64,000 nt of DNA, taken from NCBI GenBank assembly GCA_903907075.1, contig CAIVMQ010000009.1:1-64000 (forward strand), read 5' to 3'. The first letter of the stretch is position 1. The number at the start of each line of letters is the position of its first letter. Shown here in pieces: positions 17,130 to 47,941 of the stretch. Under the pieces are notes generated by a model. That model saw nothing but the letters and a program-made list of their open reading frames with translations. It ran no database searches and had not been told where the DNA came from. The stretch comes from an uncultured Bacteroidia bacterium. GTDB lineage: Bacteria > Bacteroidota > Bacteroidia > Bacteroidales > Prolixibacteraceae. The translations under genes were made by a program, and so were the position numbers.

Positions 17130-17981
17130 TTACTTAAATTCCTTCCTGTATTCTGAGGGAGTTTTCTTCATGATCACCCGGAAATAATGGTTGAAATTTG
17201 CTAGGTTATTATAGCCACATTCGTAGCAAATCTGGGTAATTTGCTTTTCCGATTCTGCAAGCAACTTTGCGGCCATTCCGATTCTAACATTCTTCACATA
17301 ATCCATGAATGTTTGATTGGTTTTCTTTTTAAAATAGCGACAAAATGAGCCGGGTTCCTTATAAACCAATGCAGAAGCCTCTTTTAATTTAATTCCTGTC
17401 TGAATATTATTAAAGACATATTCGTAGATTTTATTAATCTGGTCCTGGTCAGTCTCGAACGTATTATTCATTGCCGAGGGAAGAGCCAAATTTTCGCGAT
17501 CTTCAATTTCGAGTAAGAGTTGAAATACCTTAAGAAGCTCAATATATCTTTCAAGTCCTTTTAGGGCGACCATTTTCTTAAGGGTCTGACCAACTTTCTC
17601 AGTTTTTTTCCCTTTAAACCAAATACCGTTATTGGCATTCTTAAGTAAATTAACCACCTTCTCAAGTTCCGGGATATTAAAAAAGTCGGAACTGATGATA
17701 TTTTCGTTGAAATGGGTCACAATGCACTCTGCTTCAGAGCCCTCTTCGGTCTCCAAATTATCCCAGCAATGAGGAATATGCGGGCCAAGGAGAACCAGGT
17801 CCCCCTTAGTATAACCCGAAATACTATTCCCAACGATCCTTTTTCCCGATCCAGAGGCAATATAATTCAACTCGAAATTCCGATGCGAATGAATCTTGGT
17901 GATATTCGAGGCGAGTTGTAACTTCCTGGTTATAAATGAATAGTTATGAGAAACAAAGATCTTCTCATAGATTATTTCCAT
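17130..17981 (-). CDS. AraC-family transcriptional regulator with cupin sensor domain
   Basis: A 283-residue protein. Residues 1-150 form an AraC-type cupin sensor (ITKIHSHRNFELNYIASGSG; GDLVLLGPHIPHCW). Residues of about 185-283 carry two helix-turn-helix motifs with the family signature (ITQICYECGYNNLANFNHYF, then FRVIMKKTPSEYRKEF). The ATG at 17981 is preferred over an upstream one because a -7 box lies at 18016-18023, leaving a leader of about 28 bases; the longer version would run over the promoter. It faces the divergent aldolase gene and probably senses a locus sugar. Confidence 0.92.
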   Translation of the reverse strand: MEIIYEKIFVSHNYSFITRKLQLASNITKIHSHRNFELNYIASGSGKRIVGNSISGYTKGDLVLLGPHIPHCWDNLETEEGSEAECIVTHFNENIISSDFFNIPELEKVVNLLKNANNGIWFKGKKTEKVGQTLKKMVALKGLERYIELLKVFQLLLEIEDRENLALPSAMNNTFETDQDQINKIYEYVFNNIQTGIKLKEASALVYKEPGSFCRYFKKKTNQTFMDYVKNVRIGMAAKLLAESEKQITQICYECGYNNLANFNHYFRVIMKKTPSEYRKEFK

Positions 17982-18015
17982 CTTTTCCCGATTTAATATT
18001 CTTAACTTAAAAACA

Positions 18016-18023
18016 CAAATATA
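18016..18023 (-). promoter_or_regulatory. Bacteroidota-type -7 box for the araC-type gene
   Basis: TATATTTG on the minus strand matches TAnnTTTG exactly, 34 bases before the chosen ATG. No clear TTTG -33 box was found about 20 bases upstream, which fits a promoter that depends on an activator or is regulated. Confidence 0.5.
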
Positions 18024-18033
18024 AACGTTTATA
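18020..18033. promoter_or_regulatory. Palindrome over the araC-type promoter, LacI-operator-like
   Basis: TATAAACGTTTATA is a perfect 14-bp palindrome with the AAACGTTT core common in LacI-family operators. It overlaps the -7 box and spacer of the araC-type promoter in the divergent araC/aldolase gap. It shares AAACGnTT with the palindrome before the ROK gene. Binding by the LacI protein of this window is inference. Confidence 0.5.
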
Positions 18034-18192
18034 ATCAGATAACAGTTAAAATACAATGCAAATAGAACAAGATTATAGAAGTATTAAAGAAGGCGATCCT
18101 TTTAATTTGTATAAGGATATGAATTTTAAGATATCACCCACTCGTTGTGTGCAAAATTCAGCTTAGACTATAAAATATTATATTATTTAATT

Positions 18193-19101
18193 ATGAAATT
18201 ACCTTTAAGGGGGATTATTCCTCCAGTTGTTACGCCTCTTCTTGACAACAACACATTAGATGTAAAAGGGCTTGAAAAGCTTGTTGAGTATCTTATCGAG
18301 GGAGGAGTGCATGGCTTGTTTATCTTAGGAACTACAGGAGAAGCGCCGAGTCTCAGTTACGAGCTTCGCAAAGAGTTTATCAAAAAGACATGCGAACTTG
18401 CCAATCACCGTGTTCCGGTGATGGTGGGAATTACCGATACCTCGTTTGAAGGATCTTTGGATATCGCTGAATATTCGCACAAAGTTGGTGTCGATGCAGT
18501 GGTTGTTGCCCCTCCCTATTACATGCCAATTGCACAATCAGAACTTGTTTTTTACTTACAAAATTTAATTCCTAAACTGCCTTTACCTGTTTTATTATAC
18601 AATATGCCGAGTCATACTAAACTCCACATGGATTTAGAGACGGTTAAAATTGGCCAAGCATTGGGTGCAATAGGGATTAAGGATAGCTCGGGTGATATGT
18701 TTTATCAAACGAATTTGATTGAAGCATTTAAAGACAAGCCTGAATTTGCCATTATTACGGGTACTGAGCTTTTCCTTCCTGAAACGATCTTACAAGGTGG
18801 ACATGGAGCAATTGCAGGTGGCGCCAATATATATCCTAAATTATTTGTTGCCATTTACGAGGCTTCCTTAGCTCGTGATTTTGAAAAAATTGCCAAATTA
18901 AGAGAGATAAATATTCAACTTTACAATACTATTTATGCGGTATCTGGAAATAGTTCCAGATATATCAAAGGACTAAAATGCACCTTGGCATCAATGGGTA
19001 TCTGCAATGACTATGCTGCCTTACCACTGACAAAATACGAAGGTGAAGATCGCAAAAAAATAGAAAAATTCGTTGCTCAGTTTAAAGGGATACTCGATTA
19101 A
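18193..19101 (+). CDS. DapA/NanA superfamily class I aldolase/lyase
   Basis: A 302-residue (beta/alpha)8 aldolase. GTTGE at 46-50 binds the keto-acid carboxylate, Tyr136 lies in LYNMPS, and Lys163 in GIKDSSGD is the expected Schiff-base lysine. The family includes dihydrodipicolinate synthase, N-acetylneuraminate lyase and several 2-keto-3-deoxy sugar acid aldolases. GTTGE rather than the NanA GSTGE, together with KDSSGD, argues against a textbook NanA; a 2-keto-3-deoxy-acid aldolase is at least as likely. The ATG at 18193 begins the conserved MKLPLRGIIPPVVTP; an upstream in-frame ATG at 18145 adds non-conserved residues. It is divergent from the araC-type gene and closed by a strong terminator. 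Confidence 0.88.
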   Translation: MKLPLRGIIPPVVTPLLDNNTLDVKGLEKLVEYLIEGGVHGLFILGTTGEAPSLSYELRKEFIKKTCELANHRVPVMVGITDTSFEGSLDIAEYSHKVGVDAVVVAPPYYMPIAQSELVFYLQNLIPKLPLPVLLYNMPSHTKLHMDLETVKIGQALGAIGIKDSSGDMFYQTNLIEAFKDKPEFAIITGTELFLPETILQGGHGAIAGGANIYPKLFVAIYEASLARDFEKIAKLREINIQLYNTIYAVSGNSSRYIKGLKCTLASMGICNDYAALPLTKYEGEDRKKIEKFVAQFKGILD

Positions 19102-21163: not shown

Positions 21164-22255
21164 ATGAAAAAAATTAATGCTTTTATACTGCTGCTGCTAA
21201 TCGGGAATGCATCTTTTGGAGAAAATCCATATAAGGGGAGCGCGGCTTTAGTAACAAGCGAGTTGATTTTCGGGGCACAGGATGTTCCTTTTGCCAGTTG
21301 TCATGCCTCCACAATAGCAGAGATCACGGATGGACTTATTGTGGCATGGTTTGGAGGTACAAAAGAGAAAAACCCCGATGTTGCAATTTGGTCCAGCAGA
21401 TATCTGGATGGAAAATGGACCATTCCAATTGAATTGGCAAATGGCAAACAAGTAAAAGGCAAAAGATTTCCAACCTGGAATCCAGTATTATACAATGCAG
21501 GATCTGAGCTTCTCCTATTTTATAAAGTTGGTCCAAATTGTTCCGACTGGTGGGGCGAATTAATCACCTCAAAAGACAATGGCCTAACGTGGACTAAGCC
21601 CCGACGGCTACCCAAAGGGATCTGGGGACCTATCAAGAATAAACCGGTAATGCTTTCCAATGGGGAACTATTATGCCCTTCGAGCACTGAGATTAAAGGT
21701 GATAGGGTTCATCTAGAAACAACTTCCGATCTTGGGCTTACCTGGAATAAGACAAAACCACTTAACAGTGGGAAGAGACTATCAATCATCCAACCAACCA
21801 TCCTTATTCATACTAATGGAGAACTGCAAATCTTATGTCGTAGCAATAGTAAAGTAATACTAACCTCATGGTCTTCGAATAATGGGATTAGCTGGAGTCC
21901 ATTTGAGCCTACGACACTGCCAAATCCGGATTCCGGAATCGATGCGGTTACCCTTACGAATGGATTAAATCTCTTGGTTTACAACCATTTTAATCCAAAA
22001 TACGACTGGGAATCAAGAAATATCCTAAATATTGCAGTCTCAAAGGATGGGCTCAATTGGGATGCAGCCGTCTTATTGGAAAACGACCCTGATCCTGATA
22101 GCGAATATTCATATCCTGCAGTTATTCAAACCGATGATGGTTTAGTACATATTACCTATACCTGGAATAGAAGATCAATCAAACACGTTATCATTGATCC
22201 TAAGCTACTTATACTAGTGCCTATATACAATAGCATCTGGCCTGAAGAATTATGA
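21164..22255 (+). CDS. Secreted BNR-repeat (predicted neuraminidase, COG4692-type) protein
   Basis: A 363-residue protein with a signal peptide (MKKINAFILLLLIGNASFG). The six-bladed sialidase-like propeller shows Asp boxes: SKDNGLTW near 136, TSDLGLTW near 187 and a weaker SSNNGISW. The N-terminal blade has CHASTI and AWFGGTKEKNPDVAIW, typical of this family. The F/Y-R-I-P arginine motif of GH33 sialidases is absent, so a sialic acid substrate is not assured. The next gene, 23 bases on, is a distant homologue; both end with SIKHVVID or IKHVIIDP. Confidence 0.85.
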   Translation: MKKINAFILLLLIGNASFGENPYKGSAALVTSELIFGAQDVPFASCHASTIAEITDGLIVAWFGGTKEKNPDVAIWSSRYLDGKWTIPIELANGKQVKGKRFPTWNPVLYNAGSELLLFYKVGPNCSDWWGELITSKDNGLTWTKPRRLPKGIWGPIKNKPVMLSNGELLCPSSTEIKGDRVHLETTSDLGLTWNKTKPLNSGKRLSIIQPTILIHTNGELQILCRSNSKVILTSWSSNNGISWSPFEPTTLPNPDSGIDAVTLTNGLNLLVYNHFNPKYDWESRNILNIAVSKDGLNWDAAVLLENDPDPDSEYSYPAVIQTDDGLVHITYTWNRRSIKHVIIDPKLLILVPIYNSIWPEEL

Positions 22256-22278: not shown

Positions 22279-23469
22279 ATGAAAAAAACACTTTATACAT
22301 TACTTGCATTTCTCATCATTTTGAATGTTTCTGCACAGACACGTGATGAGAAAAAAGCTATTGTGAGTGAAGAGATCCTCTTCCCTGTGCAACCAGACCA
22401 TACACATGGCAGCAGCATTGTGCAATTACCAGATGGGGATCTGCTGGCTGTTTGGTTTCAGGGGAGTGGGGAAAGAACAGCCGATGATGTGCGGGTTATG
22501 GGTACTCGATTAAAGAGGGGAGAAAAAACATGGCGGACACCATTTTTAATGGCCGACACCAAAGGTATTCCCGATTGCAATCCTGTTCTCTTTCTAAACC
22601 GCGAGGGTAAACTCTTTCTTTTTTGGGTTGCTGTCCAAGCAAATAAATGGGAAAATGCCATATTGCGATTCAGAACATCTACGAAATATACCGGTAATGA
22701 TGCACCTGTATGGGAATGGCAAGACGATATTTTGTTTAAACCTGACGAAAGTTTTGTTAAAGAGGTGGAGAAGCGATTTAAGGAGATGTCCGAAACAAAT
22801 GCCGGATGGGCTGCCTATGCCCCTGTATATGACAACATGATCAAAGAGGCAAGTAAAGATCTACTAAAGAGAAGCTTAGGATGGATGGGGCGTATACACC
22901 CTAAAACACTCGCAAGCGGACGAATATTGTTACCGCTTTATAACGATGGCTTTAACTTCTCGATGGTCGCCATTTCTGACGATAACGGATTATCGTGGAG
23001 GCCAAGCCTCCCAATTGTTGGTCGGGGACCAATCCAACCGGCATTGGCAGTAAAGAAAAATGGGGACATCGTGGCCTATATGCGCGACAGTGGTGATGCT
23101 CCCAACAGGGTTCAAAAAAGTATCTCGACAGACCAGGGAGAATCGTGGAGCACTGCCGTAAAAACTGAAATACCGAATGAAGCCAGTGTTGAACTATGCG
23201 TACTTAAAGATGGGAAATGGGCATTTGTGGGCAACGATATAAATGATGGCCGCTATCAATTCTCCCTCTATCTCTCAGATGATGAAGGAGCCACCTGGAA
23301 ATGGAAAGAGCTGATTGAATATGACTCAACAAAAAAAGGGAGCTTCTCCTACCCTTGTCTTATCCAAACGATTGATGGACTTTTAAATATCACCTATTCC
23401 TATTCATTAGGCTCACATATGGAGTCTATTAAACATGTCGTTATCGATCCGGCTAAAATCACGAAATAA
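22279..23469 (+). CDS. Secreted BNR-repeat/sialidase-like protein
   Basis: A 396-residue protein with a signal peptide (MKKTLYTLLAFLIILNVSAQ). Asp boxes are SDDNGLSW near 232, STDQGESW near 283 and SDDEGATW near 333, which support a sialidase-type propeller. The N-terminal blade (HTHGSSIVQLPDGDLLAVWF) again lacks the RIP arginine. It is a tandem divergent paralogue of the preceding gene and leads into the ChbG gene after 33 bases. The tandem order suggests two related exo-acting steps on one glycan; the substrate is unproven. Confidence 0.85.
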   Translation: MKKTLYTLLAFLIILNVSAQTRDEKKAIVSEEILFPVQPDHTHGSSIVQLPDGDLLAVWFQGSGERTADDVRVMGTRLKRGEKTWRTPFLMADTKGIPDCNPVLFLNREGKLFLFWVAVQANKWENAILRFRTSTKYTGNDAPVWEWQDDILFKPDESFVKEVEKRFKEMSETNAGWAAYAPVYDNMIKEASKDLLKRSLGWMGRIHPKTLASGRILLPLYNDGFNFSMVAISDDNGLSWRPSLPIVGRGPIQPALAVKKNGDIVAYMRDSGDAPNRVQKSISTDQGESWSTAVKTEIPNEASVELCVLKDGKWAFVGNDINDGRYQFSLYLSDDEGATWKWKELIEYDSTKKGSFSYPCLIQTIDGLLNITYSYSLGSHMESIKHVVIDPAKITK

Positions 23470-23502: not shown

Positions 23503-24588
23503 ATGACAACGAACACGACCCAATTAAGTGAGAAATCAGGTTTTGATTTCCAATTCAGCAAAAAGCTAAAATATGTTATTGCCCTTTCTTTGGCGATAGC
23601 CTTATTTGCATCTCCTGCGTTGTTATCAGCAAGCAAACGTGCAACTGATACAAAAGTGAAATCGTCATCAATTTCAGGATCAACACAGAAAGAGCAGAGC
23701 TGGGCCGAAAAACTAGGATTCCCATCCGGTAAAAGAGTGTTATTGTTACATATTGACGATGCCGGGATGTGCCCCGAAGCAAACACCTCGACATACAATT
23801 ATATCGAGAAAGGTTTTTTAAATTCTGCGGCTGTAATGATGCCGTGTCCCAATGCTGAAGCGATCATTAAATGGGCTAAAGGTCATCCAAAAGCAGATAT
23901 TGGTCTCCATTTAACCCTTACCAGTGAGTGGACGAATCATCGTTGGGGACCGATTTCAGATCCGGCAAAAGTTCCCGGACTAATCGATCCCGATGGGAAA
24001 TTATGGCATGAAGTACCTGATGTGGTGATGCATGCATCGGCACAAGAGGTGGAGACAGAGATCCGTGCACAGATCGAAAAATCTATTGCACTTGGATACC
24101 GCCCAAACCATATCGATACCCATATGGGAACACTCTATGGATCTCCTGATTATGTGAACGTATTCTTAAAAGTTGCTCAGGATTATCATATCCCGGGTAA
24201 TATAATCAATGTGGCAGACCCTGAAATTGCGGAGAACTTTAAGAAAGCTGCCGGATACCCCATCACCGAAGAAGTAATCAGCAGCATCCGTAGTTACAAC
24301 ATGCCAAAACTTGATAACTTCACAAGCGTAGGCCCCGGAGATACCTACGAAATCAAACGAACAAACTTTTTTACCCTGGTGAAATCACTAAAAGAGGGTC
24401 TGACAGAAATTATTTTCCACCCTTCGGTACCAACAGAGAACCTAAAATCAATAACAGGGACCTGGCAACAACGAGGTTGGGAAGGTGACCTGTTTGCTGA
24501 TCCTGTAGTCATAAATTTTCTTAAAGACCAAGGGGTGATTATTACTGACTGGAAAGAGATTATGGCTCGTTTTGACAAAAAGAAATAG
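23503..24588 (+). CDS. ChbG/YdjC-type carbohydrate deacetylase, membrane-anchored or exported
   Basis: A 361-residue protein. Residues of about 25-45 are a hydrophobic signal or anchor, followed by a Ser/Lys-rich linker. The ChbG/YdjC domain runs from about 70 to 360: the metal-binding HIDDAGMCPEAN near 83, IDTHMGT near 204 and the late IIFHPS near 304. Family members remove an N-acetyl group from amino sugar oligosaccharides. Its domain is highly similar to the C-terminus of the next protein, including the long shared end from IIFHPSVPTENL onward. Most changes between the two copies at DNA level are synonymous, so both seem maintained by selection. Confidence 0.88.
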   Translation: MTTNTTQLSEKSGFDFQFSKKLKYVIALSLAIALFASPALLSASKRATDTKVKSSSISGSTQKEQSWAEKLGFPSGKRVLLLHIDDAGMCPEANTSTYNYIEKGFLNSAAVMMPCPNAEAIIKWAKGHPKADIGLHLTLTSEWTNHRWGPISDPAKVPGLIDPDGKLWHEVPDVVMHASAQEVETEIRAQIEKSIALGYRPNHIDTHMGTLYGSPDYVNVFLKVAQDYHIPGNIINVADPEIAENFKKAAGYPITEEVISSIRSYNMPKLDNFTSVGPGDTYEIKRTNFFTLVKSLKEGLTEIIFHPSVPTENLKSITGTWQQRGWEGDLFADPVVINFLKDQGVIITDWKEIMARFDKKK

Positions 24589-24627
24589 CTGTAAAACAGC
24601 ATCAGCATCCGATTTTAATTTTTTAAA

Positions 24628-27600
24628 ATGGCACTAACCATGACTCGAAACTCAACTAAATCACTTTCCGGGCTTCCCTTTCTTAAGAAGATAACCCCAA
24701 TTGGAATCATTATGCTAATAGCTGCAATTGGCATAATCCCACAGATGCTCTCTGCTCAGAAATTGAACCTCCCCTTAAAATGGGCAACCAATCAGAAGAG
24801 CTTTATTGAAAGTGCTGCCACCGTTGCCGATGTGAACAATGATGGATTGGACGAAGCGGTTATTACCACACAAGAGGAGGTCGTCGTTATTGGAAAGACG
24901 GGGTCGGATCTTTGGCGATGGCGTTCTAAAGGGCGGTTTATGACTTATCCAACAGTGCTAAAACGGGCAGGAAAATCGGCCTTAATTTATGCTGCCGATA
25001 ATCGAGGAAACGTTACTTGTCTCGATGGAGTGGGGAAAGTAATCTGGCAAGCGACCCTAGAGTCGGGCACAGATTGGTCAGCCGGAGTTATTGCCGATCT
25101 TTATAACAATGGTCATCAAGAGTTAATTCAGACTGATGCAACTGGAAATATTTGGATTTTTGATGCACTCAATGGAACGGTTTTAAAGAAAACAAAGATC
25201 GCAGGACAACCTGTTAGTCCATCTGTAGGAGATCTGGATGGAGACGGGAAGTTAGAGCTTGTCGTTGCTACCACAGATGGTTCAATCACGGCCTTAACAA
25301 GTGATCTCTCAACCATCTGGCGCCTTAAAATTGGTGGAGAATCTGAATCATGGTCTTGCTCCGCACCTGTTATGTTTAGTGCTTCAAATAGCCAAGTCTA
25401 TATCATTGCAGCTTCCAGCACGGGAGAAATATTCTGTCTCGACGCTAAGGGTAAGACCGCATGGCAATACCCTACCAATGTTCCGGTATCATCGTCAATC
25501 TCAATTGGCGATTTCGACCAGGATGGCGAGGCCGATATTTTCTTAATCACCCATTCCGGAATAATCTATCGATTTGATGAACGAGGAAATGTTGTATGGA
25601 ATATCGATATGCAAGGGCGCTCGTTAGCGCCCGGTGCTATTGCAGATGTTAATGGGGACGGAAAATTAGAATATGTTGTAACAACTCAGGTGGGTCATAT
25701 ATTCGTATTTAACAATCAAGGTACTGTGATCTTTGACCATCAACTGCCATCAAGGGCTATCAATGTAACGGCTTCGCTTGGTCATGTGACTGGCGACAAT
25801 GATAAATTGGATCTGGTTTTAACAGGCGGTGAATCAGGGATGACCTATTGCTTTCAAACTCCAAGTCTCAAGAATCCAAAGTTACAATGGACCAATTACA
25901 GATCAAATATTCAGAATACGGGCTCATGGTTTGGGTTAACTAAATCAGATGAATTACGAATGGTACCGCAAAATTTAGCGTGGAATAAGGTTCTTAATGG
26001 TGAAAAAATTCAATTTAACATCACCAATCCTAAGCCAAGTACGAGTCCTTTAAAAGCACAAGCTCAATGTATTAGTCCAAATGGAACTAAAAACTATGCT
26101 ATTGCATCGATATACAACAAAGAGGGCCAACTTTATCTCCCAGCCAATTTTACAATGCCCGGAAGTTATCAGTTTAGCTGGTCTGTTTTTGATTCAAAAG
26201 GAACAGAGTTATTATCGGGTTCCCGAAGCGTAACCTTACAGCCCTTTGAAAACGATCGTGCTTTGGCTTCACTAGCAATAAAAGCTTTAAATAGCAGTGC
26301 CGAAACAGTCTCTGCTGTCTTGCCATTATCCGCATTAGCATTGCGCAAAGAGGCTACTAATATTGAGGCAGAAGCAACGAATCTGGCCGTAGAGCAGGTG
26401 AAAATTCCTCAAAGCAACTCCGTCAGTATTGAGTCAATGATTAAATCAACAGGCTCCTTAAACAAAGCATCAAAGCGTGCAATTGCAATAAGTGAGATTG
26501 TTACCAAGTCTGCTAACTTAGGCTCAGGAACAAGTATTATTGCATTTGAAGGGAATAAATGGGACAACCGCAATGTAGACAGGCAACTGCCTGTGGCAAT
26601 AGAAAATCCGATAAACTTAAATCATCTGGCAGTCCCGGGTGAACACCATCCGATACCTATCGTTCTATTTAATATTACAGATCATTTGCTCAATGGCAGA
26701 GTAGTGCTAGTGAATCAAGTGCCCGGAATAAAAGTTACACTTTTGCATGCGATTAATATAGCCACTTCTCTTGGCGAAGAGTCGTGGGATGCACTGCCAG
26801 AGCTTGATGAGTCTGGCGTTATTTCCATTCCGGCCCTCTCAAGCAGAGAGGTGTGGATAGATCTCGAAATTGAATCCAATGCGATAGGCAAACAGAATCT
26901 CGAGTTTACAATCCAAGCACTTAATGGTGCCGGAGTCTTAGATGCCCCTACAAATCCGCATGACGTGCCGGCTCCTGAAACGAAAGTAAAAGTGGCACTC
27001 GACATTTTGCCATTTACTATGGCTTCCTCATCTGACTTTAGAATGTGTACCTGGTCACCTTCAACAGGGCCTGAGATTCCATCACTATTAGCCCATGGAA
27101 ATAATGTATTCTTATTAACAAATCCAATTTTTAAATATACTGATAAAAATGAATTAATAGGATTTGATTATACTGTCCAGGATAAAATCCTCGAGCAATT
27201 TAGAGGTAAAGAGGTCTTTTTATTAATCAATGGCTTGCCAGGAATTAATGCAGAATTTGCCAGTGATGGATACAAAAAACAATTCAATACGTATCTAAAA
27301 GATCTTGTAAATCATTTATCTAGCTATGGATTTAGCACTAATCAGTTTGCACTTTATCCAATAGACGAGCCTGGAGGCAATGGATGGAATGCTGTTAACC
27401 AGGTTGTTAAATTTGGGGCGATTGCCAATTCCGTGAATCCGGATGTGATGATTTACCAGGATGGCGGTGGTGAATTACCAATGTTTCAGGCGATGTCTAA
27501 GTCGGTTAATGTGTGGAGTCCCACCATTGATTGGATTGCAGACAAGACACCGGAGATGGATATTATGCGGACAAAGAAAAAATTCCTCTGGTCGTACAAT

Positions 27601-28992
27601 TGCTCATATGCCTCTTCAAGGCCTGTGGGTCCTAACATAAAAAATATCAATTTGATTTATGAATTCCGCACAGCCGCCCTGCTTGCCCTACGCAATGGAG
27701 CCTCTGGAATAGGTTTCTGGTGCTACAATCTGGGCGCTGAAAATCCATGGTCTCGAATAAAACAAGAATATAATCTTGTCTATCCCGGAAAAACAAAATC
27801 AATCACAAGTCGTCGTTGGGAAGCGGTAAGAGAGGGTATTGAAGATTATCGGATTTTAGAAGCGTTGAAATCTGCTCAAAATGATGCAACACTTGATCCT
27901 TCCGTGATACAGAGTATCGATCATCTGATAAACACCAGTCTACCCGAGTTCGTAGATCCGGGTTATCAAGCGATGAAACTGGGATTTTCTCGGGAGGTTT
28001 TTGATTTTATAAGTAGTGATTTAAAAATGACAAATTTTAGAGCTGAAATGATGAGTTGTATTCAGCTATTAAATTCTGTCAAGCACGCAAAAAAGCTTAA
28101 AACATCGGCAGAAAAACTGGGCTTTCCTTCCGGCAAAAAAATAATCCTTCTTCATATCGATGATGTTGGGATGTGCCCTGAAGCAAATACGTCAACCCAA
28201 AATTACATCTCCGGAGGATTTCTTAATTCTGCCGCAGTGATGATGCCATGTCCCAATGCCGAGTCGATTATTAAATGGGCTAAAAGTCATCCGTCAGCAG
28301 ACTTTGGACTCCATCTGACCCTCACAAGCGAATGGGTAAGCCATCGCTGGGGGCCGGTTTCAGACCCCGCCAAAGTTCCAGGATTAATCGATCCGGATGG
28401 TAAGTTATGGCCCGAAGTTCCTGATGTCCTCTTGCATGCCTCCGCGGCAGAGGTAGAAACAGAGATTCGGGCGCAGATCGAAAAATCACTAAAAATGGGT
28501 TACCGTCCAAACCATATCGATACACATATGGGAACTCTCTATGGATCTGAAGGATATATAAAAGCGTTTCTGAAAGTTGCTCAAGAATATCATATCCCGG
28601 GTAATATCATCGATTTTTCAAATCCCGAAACGGCTAATGCCTATCGCAAAACTAGAAGCTTCCCTATTACGGAAGAGGTAATACAAAGTATTGAGCATTA
28701 CAAGATGCCGAAACTGGATAATTTTACCAGTGTGCAGCCCGGAGAGACGTATGAAATCAAACGGACTAACTTTTTCACCCTCGTTAAATCACTTAAAGCA
28801 GGATTAACAGAAATAATTTTCCACCCTTCAGTGCCAACAGAAAACCTAAAATCAATCACAGGAACCTGGCAACAGCGGGGTTGGGAAGGTGATTTATTTG
28901 CTGATCCAGTAGTAATAAAATTCCTTAAAGATGAAGGGGTAATCATTACAGACTGGAAAGAGATTATGAAAAAATTTGATCATATCAATTAA
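24628..28992 (+). CDS. Giant fusion: FG-GAP propeller, DUF4091/GH123-like domain, ChbG deacetylase
   Basis: A 1454-residue exported protein (hydrophobic signal about 23-43). Residues 50-430 form an FG-GAP/PQQ-like propeller with repeats such as VADVNNDGLDEAVI and GDLDGDGKLELVV, which resemble calcium-binding loops. After a linker of about 350 residues, DUF4091 occupies about 790-1145: LYPIDEPGGNGWN holds the likely acidic pair and SRRWEAVREGIEDYRILEAL is the DUF4091/GH123 end signature. From about 1160 a complete ChbG deacetylase domain follows with HIDDVGMCPEAN, IDTHMGT and IIFHPS. GH123 enzymes act on beta-GalNAc, so a hexosaminidase-deacetylase pairing is plausible. The stop is directly followed by the next ATG. 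Confidence 0.88.
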   Translation: MALTMTRNSTKSLSGLPFLKKITPIGIIMLIAAIGIIPQMLSAQKLNLPLKWATNQKSFIESAATVADVNNDGLDEAVITTQEEVVVIGKTGSDLWRWRSKGRFMTYPTVLKRAGKSALIYAADNRGNVTCLDGVGKVIWQATLESGTDWSAGVIADLYNNGHQELIQTDATGNIWIFDALNGTVLKKTKIAGQPVSPSVGDLDGDGKLELVVATTDGSITALTSDLSTIWRLKIGGESESWSCSAPVMFSASNSQVYIIAASSTGEIFCLDAKGKTAWQYPTNVPVSSSISIGDFDQDGEADIFLITHSGIIYRFDERGNVVWNIDMQGRSLAPGAIADVNGDGKLEYVVTTQVGHIFVFNNQGTVIFDHQLPSRAINVTASLGHVTGDNDKLDLVLTGGESGMTYCFQTPSLKNPKLQWTNYRSNIQNTGSWFGLTKSDELRMVPQNLAWNKVLNGEKIQFNITNPKPSTSPLKAQAQCISPNGTKNYAIASIYNKEGQLYLPANFTMPGSYQFSWSVFDSKGTELLSGSRSVTLQPFENDRALASLAIKALNSSAETVSAVLPLSALALRKEATNIEAEATNLAVEQVKIPQSNSVSIESMIKSTGSLNKASKRAIAISEIVTKSANLGSGTSIIAFEGNKWDNRNVDRQLPVAIENPINLNHLAVPGEHHPIPIVLFNITDHLLNGRVVLVNQVPGIKVTLLHAINIATSLGEESWDALPELDESGVISIPALSSREVWIDLEIESNAIGKQNLEFTIQALNGAGVLDAPTNPHDVPAPETKVKVALDILPFTMASSSDFRMCTWSPSTGPEIPSLLAHGNNVFLLTNPIFKYTDKNELIGFDYTVQDKILEQFRGKEVFLLINGLPGINAEFASDGYKKQFNTYLKDLVNHLSSYGFSTNQFALYPIDEPGGNGWNAVNQVVKFGAIANSVNPDVMIYQDGGGELPMFQAMSKSVNVWSPTIDWIADKTPEMDIMRTKKKFLWSYNCSYASSRPVGPNIKNINLIYEFRTAALLALRNGASGIGFWCYNLGAENPWSRIKQEYNLVYPGKTKSITSRRWEAVREGIEDYRILEALKSAQNDATLDPSVIQSIDHLINTSLPEFVDPGYQAMKLGFSREVFDFISSDLKMTNFRAEMMSCIQLLNSVKHAKKLKTSAEKLGFPSGKKIILLHIDDVGMCPEANTSTQNYISGGFLNSAAVMMPCPNAESIIKWAKSHPSADFGLHLTLTSEWVSHRWGPVSDPAKVPGLIDPDGKLWPEVPDVLLHASAAEVETEIRAQIEKSLKMGYRPNHIDTHMGTLYGSEGYIKAFLKVAQEYHIPGNIIDFSNPETANAYRKTRSFPITEEVIQSIEHYKMPKLDNFTSVQPGETYEIKRTNFFTLVKSLKAGLTEIIFHPSVPTENLKSITGTWQQRGWEGDLFADPVVIKFLKDEGVIITDWKEIMKKFDHIN

Positions 28993-30081
28993 ATGAATAA
29001 ACCAGAACGAATACTTTCAGTCGATATCTTTAGAGGAATCGTTATTTCTATGATGATCATGGTCAACTATCCCGGATCATGGGGTTATATGTACGAGCCA
29101 CTTACGCACTCTGCATGGAACGGCATAACCCCAACAGACATGATCTTCCCATTTTTCATCTTTATCGTTGGAGTCTCCATCGCACTCTCCTTCTCCCGCC
29201 AAATCGAATCGTCAGTACCTCGCAATGAGATGGTCAAAAAGATATTCATACGCGGAGTAAAGATCTATCTCCTGGGTTTCTTGCTGCACTACCTGCCGGA
29301 ATTTGATTTAACACGTGTAAATCTTTTTGGTGTATTACAACGGATTGCCGTCGTTTATACCATTTCGGCCCTTTTATTTATCTATACAAACTGGAAAACA
29401 CAAGTTTATCTTGCTACCTCAATACTGCTACTCTATTGGATAACGATGCTATTTATTCCAACCTATGAGTTTAGTGCAGGAACAATGGAGCCAGGGGCCA
29501 ATCTTGCATTTTATATCGACCGTATCCTTTTCCCTGTGCAGATGATCGGCAAACATGGTTGGAGCGCAGAAGGTTTCTACTCTACATTCCCCGCCATTGT
29601 TACTGCAATATCAGGCATGATAGCCGGAAGGGTGATGCTCACCAAAAAAATAACCGAAAATACAGTTATCTGGATACTGTTAGCCGGAGTACTGTGCGTG
29701 ATAGCCGGCTTAGTTTGGAACTGGCATTTCCCAATTAATAAAAAAATATGGTCAAGTTCATTTGTCCTTTTCACCTCTGGATGGGCAGCTATCATTTTGG
29801 CATTAACACTGTTCTTGGTTGATCTTAAAGGATTTAAAAATACCCTACTGGCACGATTCGGAATTATCTTTGGAAGTAATGCAATCGCGATTTATGTGGT
29901 TGCTGATCTCTTTGAAACTACCTATAAATATACCCATATCCATGATTTGGTGTACGAAGGATTGACAAATAGTGGAATGAAGGAGGTCAATGCATCGCTA
30001 ATCTGGTCACTGATCTCCGTCGCCTCATGCTTCGTAGTCGGAGTTTTTTTATACCGAAAAAAAATATTCTTTAAAATCTAA
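28993..30081 (+). CDS. NagX-like DUF5009/acyltransferase integral membrane protein
   Basis: A 362-residue polytopic membrane protein with roughly ten hydrophobic segments. The start, MNKPERILSVDIFRGIVISM, and TPTDMIFPFFIFIVGVSIALS match the heparan-alpha-glucosaminide N-acetyltransferase-like family (COG4299), called NagX when near GlcNAc genes. The human homologue transfers acetyl from cytosolic acetyl-CoA to glucosamine across the membrane. Here it follows two deacetylase domains with no spacing at all, so it could re-acetylate free amino groups or act on transported glucosamine. That role is inference. Confidence 0.88.
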   Translation: MNKPERILSVDIFRGIVISMMIMVNYPGSWGYMYEPLTHSAWNGITPTDMIFPFFIFIVGVSIALSFSRQIESSVPRNEMVKKIFIRGVKIYLLGFLLHYLPEFDLTRVNLFGVLQRIAVVYTISALLFIYTNWKTQVYLATSILLLYWITMLFIPTYEFSAGTMEPGANLAFYIDRILFPVQMIGKHGWSAEGFYSTFPAIVTAISGMIAGRVMLTKKITENTVIWILLAGVLCVIAGLVWNWHFPINKKIWSSSFVLFTSGWAAIILALTLFLVDLKGFKNTLLARFGIIFGSNAIAIYVVADLFETTYKYTHIHDLVYEGLTNSGMKEVNASLIWSLISVASCFVVGVFLYRKKIFFKI

Positions 30082-37941: not shown

Positions 37942-39180
37942 ATGACCAAACTCTATCATACACCCATCGTTTACTTAATTACTTTCTTTTTTATGGTTAT
38001 GACAACTGCGTCATTGGCACAGGCCACGGTTGAAGGACTTTGGTATCTAACGAAAAAACCCGTCTCAGTAGAGATGAAAGATGGAAAAATTTTTAAGATA
38101 ACTCCGATAAAGAAACTTTCTAACGAGGCTCATCCTGCTTTTATCGCCCCAGGTCTAATCGACAATCAAGTAAATGGCTTTGCAGGTGTTTCTTTCTGCT
38201 TAGCTGGTGGGGAATTAACTAAAGAGGGAATCATAAAGGCGACGCACGAACTTTGGAAAAAGGGAGTCACCACCTATCTTCCAACACTTACCTCGAACAG
38301 TCGGGAGGTATTAGTGCGCAATTTCACCCTGTTAGCCAAAACAAAAAATGACCCTGAGCTAAATGGATCAATCGTGGGATACCATCTTGAAGGTCCTTAT
38401 ATCTCTCCGATTGATGGTTTTCGAGGGGCTCATCCACTGCGGCATATGCGCAAGCCAGACTGGAAAGAGTTTATGGAATTTTACGAGGCCTCAGGCAGAA
38501 ATATTACCACTGTCACGGTAGCACCAGAACTAGAGGGCGCCATTGACTTCATCAAAAAATGTACCGAGATTGGGATAACTGTAGCCATTGGACACCACAA
38601 TGGGAGTAAAGAAATTATTGAAGAGGCAGTCGCCAATGGTGCAAAAACAACCACACACCTCGGAAATGGATGCTCAAACATGATCAATAGACATGTTAAT
38701 CCTTTATGGCCTCAACTAGCCAACGATAAGCTTATGGCTAGTCTAATTTGTGATGGATTTCATCTTCGCGACGAAGAGATTATTGTCTTTTATAAAGCAA
38801 AAGGTCCAAATAGAACCATCATAACCTCCGATGTTACCCACTATGCCAACCTTCCACCAGGAGAATATAAAAATGATGAGGGAGAAACAATACAACTAAC
38901 CAAAGAAGGAATGGTTCGTTTAGCTTCACAGAATGTACTCTACGGCTCGGCATCACCGTTATCAAGAGGCGTTGCGCATATGATAAAAGTTACAGGCTGC
39001 TCGCTGGGAGAAGCCATTCAGATGGCAAGTACAAATCCAGCAAAATTATATGGATGGAAGGATCGTGGAGTTCTTGCCCCAGGCAAACGTGCCGACCTAA
39101 TTCTATTCGAAGTTGGAGAAAATGACCTAACGATTAAAAAAACCTTTGTTGCTGGGAAATTGGTTTACGAAGCTCAATAG
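37942..39180 (+). CDS. NagA-like N-acetylglucosamine-6-phosphate deacetylase with a signal peptide
   Basis: A 412-residue amidohydrolase. Residues 1-27 (MTKLYHTPIVYLITFFFMVM, then TTASLAQA) are a clear Sec signal, after which the usual NagA start GLWYLTKKPVSVEMKDGKI appears. Metal and catalytic motifs are HLEGPY near 150, GHHNGS, THLGNG and SDVTH near 297. NagA normally works in the cytoplasm on GlcNAc-6-phosphate; a phosphorylated substrate is unlikely outside. The export signal therefore suggests deacetylation of a free or glycosidic N-acetyl sugar. The gene stands 150 bases after DUF4838 and 110 before the isomerase gene. Confidence 0.87.
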   Translation: MTKLYHTPIVYLITFFFMVMTTASLAQATVEGLWYLTKKPVSVEMKDGKIFKITPIKKLSNEAHPAFIAPGLIDNQVNGFAGVSFCLAGGELTKEGIIKATHELWKKGVTTYLPTLTSNSREVLVRNFTLLAKTKNDPELNGSIVGYHLEGPYISPIDGFRGAHPLRHMRKPDWKEFMEFYEASGRNITTVTVAPELEGAIDFIKKCTEIGITVAIGHHNGSKEIIEEAVANGAKTTTHLGNGCSNMINRHVNPLWPQLANDKLMASLICDGFHLRDEEIIVFYKAKGPNRTIITSDVTHYANLPPGEYKNDEGETIQLTKEGMVRLASQNVLYGSASPLSRGVAHMIKVTGCSLGEAIQMASTNPAKLYGWKDRGVLAPGKRADLILFEVGENDLTIKKTFVAGKLVYEAQ

Positions 39181-43076: not shown

Positions 43077-43811
43077 ATGGAGATAATCATCTCAGATACA
43101 AAACAAGAACTTGGTTTAAAAGCGGCCCAAGCTGGAGCCTTACTAATCCGAGAGGCTATCAAGGCGCGTGGAGAAGCGAATATCATTGTGGCAACAGGAG
43201 CATCACAATTCGAGATGCTACAAGAACTTGTTAAAGAAGAACTTAACTGGTCAGTCGTTACTGCTTTTCACCTCGATGAATACATTGGGATCAATGAGCA
43301 GCATCCCGCTTCATTTCGAAAATATCTAAAAGAACGATTTGCTGATTTAGTCTTGCCAAAAACGTTTAACTATGTCAATGGTGATAGTGATCCCTATCAA
43401 GAGTGCCAACGGTTAGATAAGCTAATCCAATCTTTCCCGATTGATGTGGCTTTTGTAGGGATTGGAGAGAATGGTCACTTGGCGTTCAATGATCCACCTG
43501 CGGATTTCGAAACAGAGGAAGCATACCTTGTGGTTGAATTAAACGAAGCCTGTCGTAAACAACAGCTTGGCGAAGGGTGGTTTAAGACTCTTGAACAGGT
43601 TCCAAAACAAGCAATCAGCATGTCGATCAAGCAGATTTTAAAATCAAAATTTATTATTTGCAGCGTGCCAGACCAGCGAAAAGCGCAGGCAGTATTTGAC
43701 ACTGTGACTTGTGAAATTTCACCCGAGCATCCGGCTTCGATCTTACGAAACCATCCAAATACGATGGTCTACCTAGATAAAGATGCAGCATCATTACTTA
43801 AGAACTTTTAA
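43077..43811 (+). CDS. Glucosamine-6-phosphate deaminase-like protein
   Basis: A 244-residue cytoplasmic protein of the NagB/6-phosphogluconolactonase family. [10 protein letters not shown] near 62-71 and [14 protein letters not shown] near 127-140 are the active-site loops; the Asn in GENGH occurs in short Bacillus-type NagB too, so it is not a defect. FNDPP for the usual FNEP is a small change. It would convert glucosamine-6-phosphate to fructose-6-phosphate and ammonia. It lies 20 bases before the GH92 gene. An authentic NagB elsewhere in the genome cannot be excluded. Confidence 0.87.
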
Positions 43812-46156: not shown

Positions 46157-47941
46157 ATGGATAACCGCAGAGAATTCCTCAAGAAAGGTGCAATAGCCGG
46201 AATCCTTCTATCGGGAGCTACGGGCTTTAGTCGTAATCTTATAGCAGGGGAGAAATCAGAATTAAAGATAGAACTGGAAAATAAAGATTCTGGTACTACC
46301 TTTAATTCAATAGTCTTTATTACGTCTGCAGATCCGGATACCCTCGTAGAAAAAGCAACCAAGATTTTCCTCCGAATTCTCACCGAACGTACAGGGATAA
46401 ATTTCACAATATTGGGTAGTAGCCAACTGAGTATTCGGTTAAGAATTGTAGCTCAATCGATGCCACCCGAAGCCTTCCGGATTGAGAAATCGAAGGAAAA
46501 TAGCATAACCATAACCGCCAGCGATTCAAACGGCATCTTATATGGACTTGGAAAACTGTTGCATTCATCGGTCATCACAGAAAAAGGGTTTGCACCGGGA
46601 AACTGGCAGGGATTATCCGTTCCTGAGAAGCCGAAACGCAACATCTATTTTGCTACCCATTTTCATAATTTCTACCACACCGCCCCTGTTGAAAAGGTAA
46701 CCAACTATATCGAGGAGCTTGCCCTCTGGGGATATAACACGATTGAAGTTTGGTTTGACATGCACGGTTTTGAAGGAATTCATGATCCTAAGGCTATTGC
46801 AATGCTAGATCGGTTATCGTTCATCCTAAAAGCAGGCAAGAATGCAGGGATGAAAGTTGCGATCTGTATGCTAGGTAACGAAGGTTTCAACTCATCGCCA
46901 AAGGAATTACGGGCAAAACCTCCCAGGCAGATCAGACTGCGCGGATGTTACGGAGTTGAGATATGTCCTTCACAACCGGGAGGGACAGAATTGATTCTAA
47001 CACAGGTTGCAGATGAATTGGACGCATTCAACAATCGGGGGGTCATCGTTGATTATATCGTGATATGGCCTTATGATCAGGGTGGCTGCGGGTGCGACAA
47101 GTGTACGCCTTGGGGAAGTAACGGTTATTTAAAATTATCGAAGAAAATAGCTGAACTAGCCCACCAAAAGATCCCCGGTGTAAAAACCATCCTCTCCACC
47201 TGGCTTTTTGACTGTGTTGAAGACGAAGGTGAATGGTCCGGGCTGGCAGATGCCTTTGCGAACGAAAAACCCTGGGTCGATTATATCCAGGCCGATTCGC
47301 ATGAAGCGTTTCCAAAATATCTGAAAGCAAATCCGGTACCTGGAAATTTGCCGCTTCTGAACTTTCCTGAAATCAGCATGTGGGAGTCGTGGCCATGGGG
47401 TGGATTCGGGGCAAATCCTTTGCCTTCGAGGTTCCAGCGGTTATGGGATGAGGTTAAGGATAAAACCGCAGGTGGCGCTCCGTACTCAGAAGGGATCTTC
47501 GAAGATATCAATAAGGTGATTTATAGCCAGTTTTACTGGTCACGTGACAAACCTGCCACGGAGACAATCAGGGAATATATCGCATTCGAATTCTCACGGG
47601 ACCATGTCGATGAAATTAGTGAAGCAATTACCATATTGGAAAAAAATCATGGATTAAGGGGCACATTTAAAGCAGGATCAGTCGTAAAGTTCAATGTCCC
47701 CAAGGCTGATTTTGGTGCAGGAAAGGCTTTTAATCTGCTTAAATCTGTTGACGAAAAGCTTTCCGAAATGATCAAAAATGGATGGCGGTGGCGTATCCTG
47801 CTGCTGCGTGCCATGTTTGATTATGAACTACGTAAAAGTGGAGGCATACCCAATGAAGTTGTAGAAAACGGATTTCGGGAGTTATCAGCGATGTATTATG
47901 CAGAGCAGGCGGATGATTCGGTTCGACCACCGGCAAACTAA
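46157..47941 (+). CDS. Tat-exported GH67/GH20-like hydrolase, family not resolved
   Basis: A 594-residue protein with a Tat-type start (MDNRREFLKKGAIAGILLSG). A GH20b/alpha-glucuronidase-type N-terminal domain (NGILYGLGKLLHS) precedes a TIM barrel (NTIEVWFDMHGFEG; YIVIWPYDQGGCGCDKC). The CGCDKC stretch followed by WGSNGY resembles barrels of the GH67/GH115/DUF4838 kind. The exact catalytic pair was not fixed. It is the last gene of the plus-strand hydrolase run and follows GH92 by 69 bases, so it probably acts on the same glycan. Confidence 0.75.
   Translation: MDNRREFLKKGAIAGILLSGATGFSRNLIAGEKSELKIELENKDSGTTFNSIVFITSADPDTLVEKATKIFLRILTERTGINFTILGSSQLSIRLRIVAQSMPPEAFRIEKSKENSITITASDSNGILYGLGKLLHSSVITEKGFAPGNWQGLSVPEKPKRNIYFATHFHNFYHTAPVEKVTNYIEELALWGYNTIEVWFDMHGFEGIHDPKAIAMLDRLSFILKAGKNAGMKVAICMLGNEGFNSSPKELRAKPPRQIRLRGCYGVEICPSQPGGTELILTQVADELDAFNNRGVIVDYIVIWPYDQGGCGCDKCTPWGSNGYLKLSKKIAELAHQKIPGVKTILSTWLFDCVEDEGEWSGLADAFANEKPWVDYIQADSHEAFPKYLKANPVPGNLPLLNFPEISMWESWPWGGFGANPLPSRFQRLWDEVKDKTAGGAPYSEGIFEDINKVIYSQFYWSRDKPATETIREYIAFEFSRDHVDEISEAITILEKNHGLRGTFKAGSVVKFNVPKADFGAGKAFNLLKSVDEKLSEMIKNGWRWRILLLRAMFDYELRKSGGIPNEVVENGFRELSAMYYAEQADDSVRPPAN

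Follow-up and report, generated by a model that had tools for sequence, protein, structure and literature searches.

A conserved protein joining a GH123-like and a YdjC domain in a putative amino-sugar locus of Prolixibacteraceae

Introduction

Glycoside hydrolases of family GH123 use the 2-acetamido group of their own substrate (PMC11087588). In the ChbG/YdjC deacetylase family, the active-site residues of kpChbG are kept in EF3048 and TTHB029 (PMC9402603). The catalytic histidine of the transmembrane N-acetyltransferase HGSNAT is H297, and the related NagX has been proposed to make N-acetylglucosamine (GlcNAc) from periplasmic glucosamine, drawing on cytosolic acetyl-CoA; import, phosphorylation and NagA would follow (PMC9007349). 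Relatives of these families meet in a 64,000-nucleotide stretch of an uncultured Bacteroidia bacterium of the family Prolixibacteraceae (contig CAIVMQ010000009.1; hereafter the window), where a 1454-residue protein joins a beta-propeller, a GH123-like domain and a YdjC domain. The fusion is a new arrangement of already known families. We see an even chance that it is an exported protein with two catalytic domains, one for GH123-type cleavage and one for YdjC-type deacetylation, within an amino-sugar catabolic locus. The genes and domains at issue are the following.

23503..24588, + strand: free ChbG/YdjC deacetylase gene, 361 residues, probably exported (hydrophobic N-terminal stretch)
24628..28992, + strand: fusion protein of propeller, GH123-like domain and YdjC, 1454 residues
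24700..25920, + strand: FG-GAP/PQQ-like beta-propeller part of the fusion, about residues 25-431, limits approximate
25921..26967, + strand: linking region of the fusion, about residues 432-780, with no Pfam match; strands and some long helices in a low-confidence model
26968..27957, + strand: GH123-like (former DUF4091) domain of the fusion, with approximate limits; D913-E914 (27364-27369) are the candidates for the catalytic pair
28102..28980, + strand: C-terminal YdjC domain of the fusion, residues 1159-1451; active-site candidates D1178, D1179, H1229, H1296/H1300 and H1399

Domains and conserved residues

The initial annotation had read this protein, without database searches, as a propeller, a DUF4091/GH123-like domain and a full YdjC deacetylase, and Pfam bore the reading out. 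FG-GAP_3 matches at 1.1e-16 (61.6 bits against a cut-off of 26.9); a second propeller family, PF13570, matches at 1.3e-24, yet its 87.6 bits lie below the cut-off of 133. GH123_cat (PF13320) covers residues 874-1079 at 2e-10 (41 bits, above the cut-off of 23.1), and YdjC (PF04794) covers residues 1173-1434 at 4.9e-49. The gene just upstream does encode a free deacetylase, as had been claimed (YdjC match 9.8e-52), and the two YdjC domains score 168 and 176.9 bits with PF04794, whose cut-off is 29.7. Export was judged by eye from the hydrophobic N-termini of both proteins; on this ground the fusion is probably exported. An anti-phage role was considered and rejected, PADLOC having matched neither the fusion nor the free copy.

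In the GH123-like domain, two consecutive residues, D913 and E914, are invariant in all seven aligned fusions and align with the DEP of 8k2j, a solved beta-N-acetylgalactosaminidase. The PIDEP motif that holds them recurs in three further intact fusions (in genomes G831, G834 and G835), in both broken copies of the gene and in a YdjC-less protein of genome G391. The best match of the domain to a solved structure in a profile search is 6e-06; it is thus remote from characterised enzymes, and a specificity for GlcNAc or for N-acetylgalactosamine cannot be read from its sequence. This distance would also suit a domain that is non-catalytic, or acts differently, and merely positions substrate for YdjC, as would the loss of the GH123 part in G009, where YdjC was retained. 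We hold this to be unlikely, given that the Asp-Glu pair is kept together with the VYPG/Arg stretch in the conserved C-terminal part of the domain.

In the YdjC domain, D1178, D1179, H1229, H1296, D1298, H1300 and H1399 are invariant in 41 of 41 fused and free sequences. The kpChbG residues D10, D11, H61, H125 and H206 were mapped onto it through alignments with EF_3048 and TTHB029; in the EF_3048 alignment the last histidine falls in a weak stretch, and the counterpart of H125 is either H1296 or H1300. The metal-binding motifs named in the initial annotation (HIDD, IDTHMGT and IIFHPS) are present, and a second histidine motif, GLHLTLTSEW, can be added to them. The closest solved relative of the free copy is the YdjC protein 8jqe (2e-43).

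Distribution of the fusion

A frameshift or assembly join between 27900 and 28150 had been named as a possible cause of the long frame. The frame is open across the joint in the window and in six relatives aligned with it, and likewise in three further genomes, and an artefact is rejected because the fusion is intact in these nine other genomes. With the fusion as query, 61 genomes were searched, the window's included; the six others that carry it intact, at 65-80% identity, are G002, G004, G006, G011, G014 and G058. A search for YdjC in 140 genomes of the family added G831, G834 and G835. YdjC lies in a frame of more than 1400 codons in nine of these 140 genomes, the window's included, and additionally in G058. 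Broken or incomplete copies occur in G010 and on contig C250 of G014. The latter genome holds two versions of the locus, of which the C250 version groups with the clade of the window and carries the broken fusion; these are possibly mixed strains.

Beyond the family the fusion is rare. The GH123 part was found at 1e-15 in three of 393 genomes of the order (the window's, G058 and G391); the G391 protein consists of the propeller and the GH123-like part, has no YdjC and gives no PF13320 match at 1e-4. At 1e-12 it was found in two of 395 genomes of the phylum, the window's and, as a 28% match, G684. YdjC lies in a frame of more than 1000 codons in two of 67 matches from the order sample (E up to 1e-30), one of them the window's, and in one of 57 from the phylum sample (E up to 1e-35), again the window's. 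In G428 and G483, no open reading frame of at least 400 residues, counted from the first ATG, covers YdjC; a protein next to it in G483 is a Mur ligase. The window's genome (3.59 Mb in 133 contigs, 92% complete) has no YdjC beyond the two copies, and a search of the whole genome returned no second GH123_cat domain. G058 is classed in another family, but its locus (L058) is placed with genus g18 in two trees, those of the fusion's front part and of the aldolase of the locus, where it falls with G831 and G834. This placement, set against the family classification, suggests transfer of the whole locus.

The arrangement had been put forward as new. No literature naming both DUF4091 and YdjC was found in a search that mostly excluded subscription literature, and among the matches listed by related searches, titles and abstract openings named no GH123-YdjC or YdjC-glycosidase protein. 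The novelty stands to that extent; the fusion is nevertheless no singular protein of the window but a conserved family.

YdjC with changing partners

The neighbouring genes that bear on the partners of YdjC are these.

17130..18056, - strand: AraC-type regulator, at the border of the conserved locus
18145..19101, + strand: dihydrodipicolinate synthase (DHDPS)/NanA-superfamily aldolase, conserved locus member, below NanA cut-offs
21164..22255, + strand: BNR1, sialidase-like BNR_2 protein, a relative of which is fused to YdjC in G894
22279..23469, + strand: BNR2, sialidase-like BNR_2 protein, with YdjC-fused relatives in ten genomes

In most loci read, this YdjC occurs together with a BNR_2 protein and with the genes for AraC and DHDPS. 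Its position in the locus is constant among the relatives while its fusion partner varies. YdjC stands behind propeller-GH123 in 10 genomes, behind BNR2 in G005, G015, G821 (where the gene is cut by a contig edge), G822, G824, G025, G026, G892, G893 and G915, and behind BNR1 in G894; a BNR_2-YdjC protein also occurs outside the family, in G296. In G043 and G246 its partner is a 3-keto-disaccharide hydrolase domain; such joints were read in two genomes of the order at L070:2930-4489 and L100:2528-4111. In G827 and G154, where the YdjC belongs to a more distant subgroup, the partner is a beta-lactamase-type domain (joints at L089:5957-7786 and L101:1327-3411), and other YdjC frames of about 600-640 codons in the family and order samples may represent the same fusion. 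In G008, the BNR2 gene is read as two overlapping open frames (L066:9630-10822). That one deacetylase is fused to several enzymes of one locus is a strong hint of a shared pathway, and the partner fusions offer a testable route to the substrates of poorly known BNR_2, DUF4091/GH123-like and YdjC proteins.

The same pattern could have arisen by chance, if deletions in a tightly packed run of genes joined YdjC to whichever neighbour lay upstream and nothing was gained by having one polypeptide. The differing partners at a largely constant YdjC position fit this account, as do unfused single copies in, for example, G003, G008, G013, G016, G027, G906, G862 and G879. It is further favoured by G009, where the start of the fusion (a 72-residue match) is joined in frame to YdjC, most simply read as a deletion that spared YdjC. 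On the other side, 10 genomes preserve the propeller-GH123-YdjC joint, the aligned proteins are 65-80% identical to the window protein, the catalytic residues are kept, and BNR_2-YdjC proteins sit on several branches of the YdjC tree, although this tree cannot separate repeated gain of the fusion from repeated loss. Chance joining is possible, and we rate it as somewhat improbable.

The BNR_2 partners bear on the substrate as well. YdjC might remove another acetyl group, for instance from a sialic-acid-like sugar, or a blocking one on a neighbouring residue, and so clear the way for the BNR proteins and GH123. Its fusion to sialidase-like BNR_2 proteins in 12 of the loci read, and the presence of a DHDPS/NanA-superfamily aldolase, would agree with this. 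The agreement is limited by the weak matches of BNR2 (4.2e-4) and BNR1 (1.3e-6) to solved sialidases and by the score of the aldolase, which falls short of NanA; moreover, the YdjC-family enzyme kpChbG acts on diacetylchitobiose (PMC9402603). A different acetyl target is therefore a doubtful alternative, though one to be kept in mind.

Free and fused YdjC copies

The two YdjC domains of the window carry the same residue at 241 of 297 aligned positions and the same base at 672 of 891. Their differences are mostly synonymous, as expected from the first inspection: 107 of 163 changed codons. The nonsynonymous rate (dN) is 0.134-0.138 and the synonymous rate (dS), near saturation, is 1.29-1.72 by two methods; dN far below dS indicates purifying selection. 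The idea that selection keeps the duplication holds in part, since purifying selection acts between the copies, whereas the free or the fused copy is absent in several relatives. The fusion occurs without a free copy of this kind in G058, G831, G834 and G835, and the free copy alone is found in G016 and G013; G009 lost the propeller-GH123 part in frame and retained both YdjC genes.

The history of the copies is not a simple one. In a tree of 41 YdjC sequences, copies from the genus of the window cluster by organism and not by free or fused kind. The tree rejects the grouping of all fused copies in a single clade (p 0.0006), and likewise that of all free copies (p 0.004). With the domain divided into halves, the fused clade is not rejected by the first (p 0.18) and is rejected by the second (p 0.002), a weaker and mosaic signal. 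The distant YdjC of G024 was in a first tree and was dropped from the set of 41, which never included the beta-lactamase-type YdjC proteins or the YdjC proteins of G246 and G296. One old duplication followed by independent evolution is thus hard to hold. Runs of identical codons between the copies reach 19 in G004 and 17 in G006, lengths attained in 0 and 14 of 20000 shuffles, respectively, and support an exchange of sequence between the copies of these two genomes. Six pairs were tested, and those of the window, G002, G011 and G014 show no such long run. In the window pair, recent gene conversion was not seen, the longest identical run being 6 of 281 codons, which 15934 of 20000 shuffles reach. 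Copy exchange in the wider ancestry is possible, and so are two separate duplications. The pairs of G004 and G006 illustrate how a domain can exchange sequence with a free copy of itself.

The adjacent NagX-like gene

28993..30081, + strand: NagX/HGSNAT-type transmembrane N-acetyltransferase, its ATG abutting the TAA of the fusion

The start of a NagX-like gene at the base after the fusion's stop codon was correctly noticed at the outset. The protein matches HGSNAT_cat (PF07786) with 44.1 bits against a cut-off of 22, and its H39 aligns with H297 of HGSNAT. A nagX gene lies directly behind YdjC in 13 loci (G000, G002, G004, G005, G006, G009, G011, G013, G014, G016, G824, G834 and G835), where it abuts the stop exactly in seven, overlaps it by one base in three and is separated by 2 to 34 bases in three. 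Eight of the 10 intact fusion loci have this arrangement. It was not seen in the loci of G015, G008, G821, G822, G025, G027, G043, G302, G862 and G879, nor in those of G892, G893, G894, G906 and G915; in G003, G010, G014:C250 and G026, contig ends or breaks leave the position undecided.

The NagX-like protein could instead be an importer of amino sugars, in which case the product of YdjC would be taken up as a free amine. NagX is distantly akin to a putative N-acetylmuramate transporter (PMC9007349), which speaks for this proposal. Against it stand the conserved histidine that carries the acetyl group and the separate major facilitator superfamily (MFS) transporter of the cluster, and we consider an importer improbable.

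Proposed function

37942..39180, + strand: NagA-like amidohydrolase (217.9 bits, just below the cut-off of 225.65)
43077..43811, + strand: NagB-like member of the glucosamine-6-phosphate deaminase family, scoring under equivalog cut-offs
46157-47941: open frame of 594 residues that closes the cluster; Pfam gives no hit at 0.001

What the analysis shows are the sequence families, the catalytic residues, the gene order, conservation, and the joining of this YdjC to further enzymes of the locus in relatives. Under the two-enzyme reading, export, the activities, their order, the substrate and the link to NagX, all of which we infer, would combine as follows. The fusion would be located in the periplasm or on the cell surface, where its propeller probably binds glycan or serves as a scaffold. 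The GH123-like domain would use D913-E914 to cut a beta-N-acetylhexosaminide by substrate-assisted catalysis. The YdjC domain would hydrolyse an N-acetyl group, its metal being bound by D1179, H1229 and either H1296 or H1300; by analogy with kpChbG, D1178 would be the base and H1399 the acid. Because GH123 needs the 2-acetamido group, deacetylation first would block cleavage of the same residue, so YdjC would have to follow GH123 and work on the piece set free, or else target another residue. The NagX-like protein might put an acetyl group from cytosolic acetyl-CoA back onto the glucosamine-type sugar so released; once imported, the sugar might go on to the cluster's NagA-like and NagB-like proteins, both of which, like the MFS transporter, score below NCBIfam cut-offs.

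Several observations weigh against this proposal. The GH123 match is weak and spans only positions 123-323 of the 324 of the profile, and an AlphaFold2 model of residues 431-1160, built from two input sequences and meant to show the N-terminal domain and barrel of GH123, is poor (mean predicted local distance difference test score, pLDDT, 43.6). The ChbG equivalog NF002559 of NCBIfam is not reached by the fusion (46.4 bits) or the free copy (62.8) at its cut-off of 227, nor is the NagX equivalog NF046061 by the NagX-like protein (174.6 against 480 bits). The nagX gene is not directly downstream of the fusion in G058 and G831. The loss of the GH123 part in G009 and the lack of a fusion in G013 and G016 mean that the pairing is dispensable. 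Removing an acetyl group and adding it again is wasteful unless some step intervenes; an adjacent re-acetylase makes sense only if the free amine is used, or if the enzyme serves another molecule.

A broader scheme is conceivable. An exported YdjC with a lineage-specific partner (GH123, BNR_2 or 3-keto-disaccharide hydrolase) would strip N-acetyl groups, linkages otherwise blocked would be processed, and the adjacent NagX-like protein would re-acetylate the products from acetyl-CoA for uptake, completing a cycle outside the cytoplasmic membrane. We regard this scheme as a long shot; if true, it would amount to a general extracellular logic of deacetylation, cleavage and re-acetylation for amino-sugar glycans. 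If the NagX link itself is real, it would define a route of extracellular deacetylation and re-acetylation.

Elsewhere in the window cluster, two Gfo/Idh proteins give partial matches, far below the cut-off, to a glycoside 3-dehydrogenase family. Promoter-like sites are not enriched (37 against a shuffle mean of 40.2), and terminator-like sites number 16 against 12.8 in shuffles.

Comparison with known systems

The fusion shares PF13320, the Asp-Glu pair and the C-terminal stretch with the GH123/DUF4091 beta-N-acetylgalactosaminidases (PMC11087588; PDB 8k2f, 8k2j and 8k2l), from which it differs in being only distantly similar and in carrying a propeller in front and a deacetylase behind. With the ChbG/YdjC deacetylases (kpChbG; TTHB029, EF_3048 and PDB 8jqe) it has PF04794 and the active-site residues in common, whereas the YdjC described here is probably exported, duplicated, fused and below the ChbG equivalog cut-off. 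The NagX/HGSNAT transmembrane N-acetyltransferases (PMC9007349) share the HGSNAT_cat domain and the catalytic histidine with the window protein, which in contrast falls below the NagX equivalog cut-off and is encoded directly behind a deacetylase gene. For a bifunctional polypeptide that contains GH123, the closest precedent found is SiaBb3, a GH33-GH123 enzyme of Bifidobacterium bifidum (PMC12856340), which likewise combines GH123 with a second enzyme for the same glycan. The partner in SiaBb3 is a sialidase; here it is a deacetylase, and the sialidase-like proteins are separate or, in relatives, fused to YdjC.

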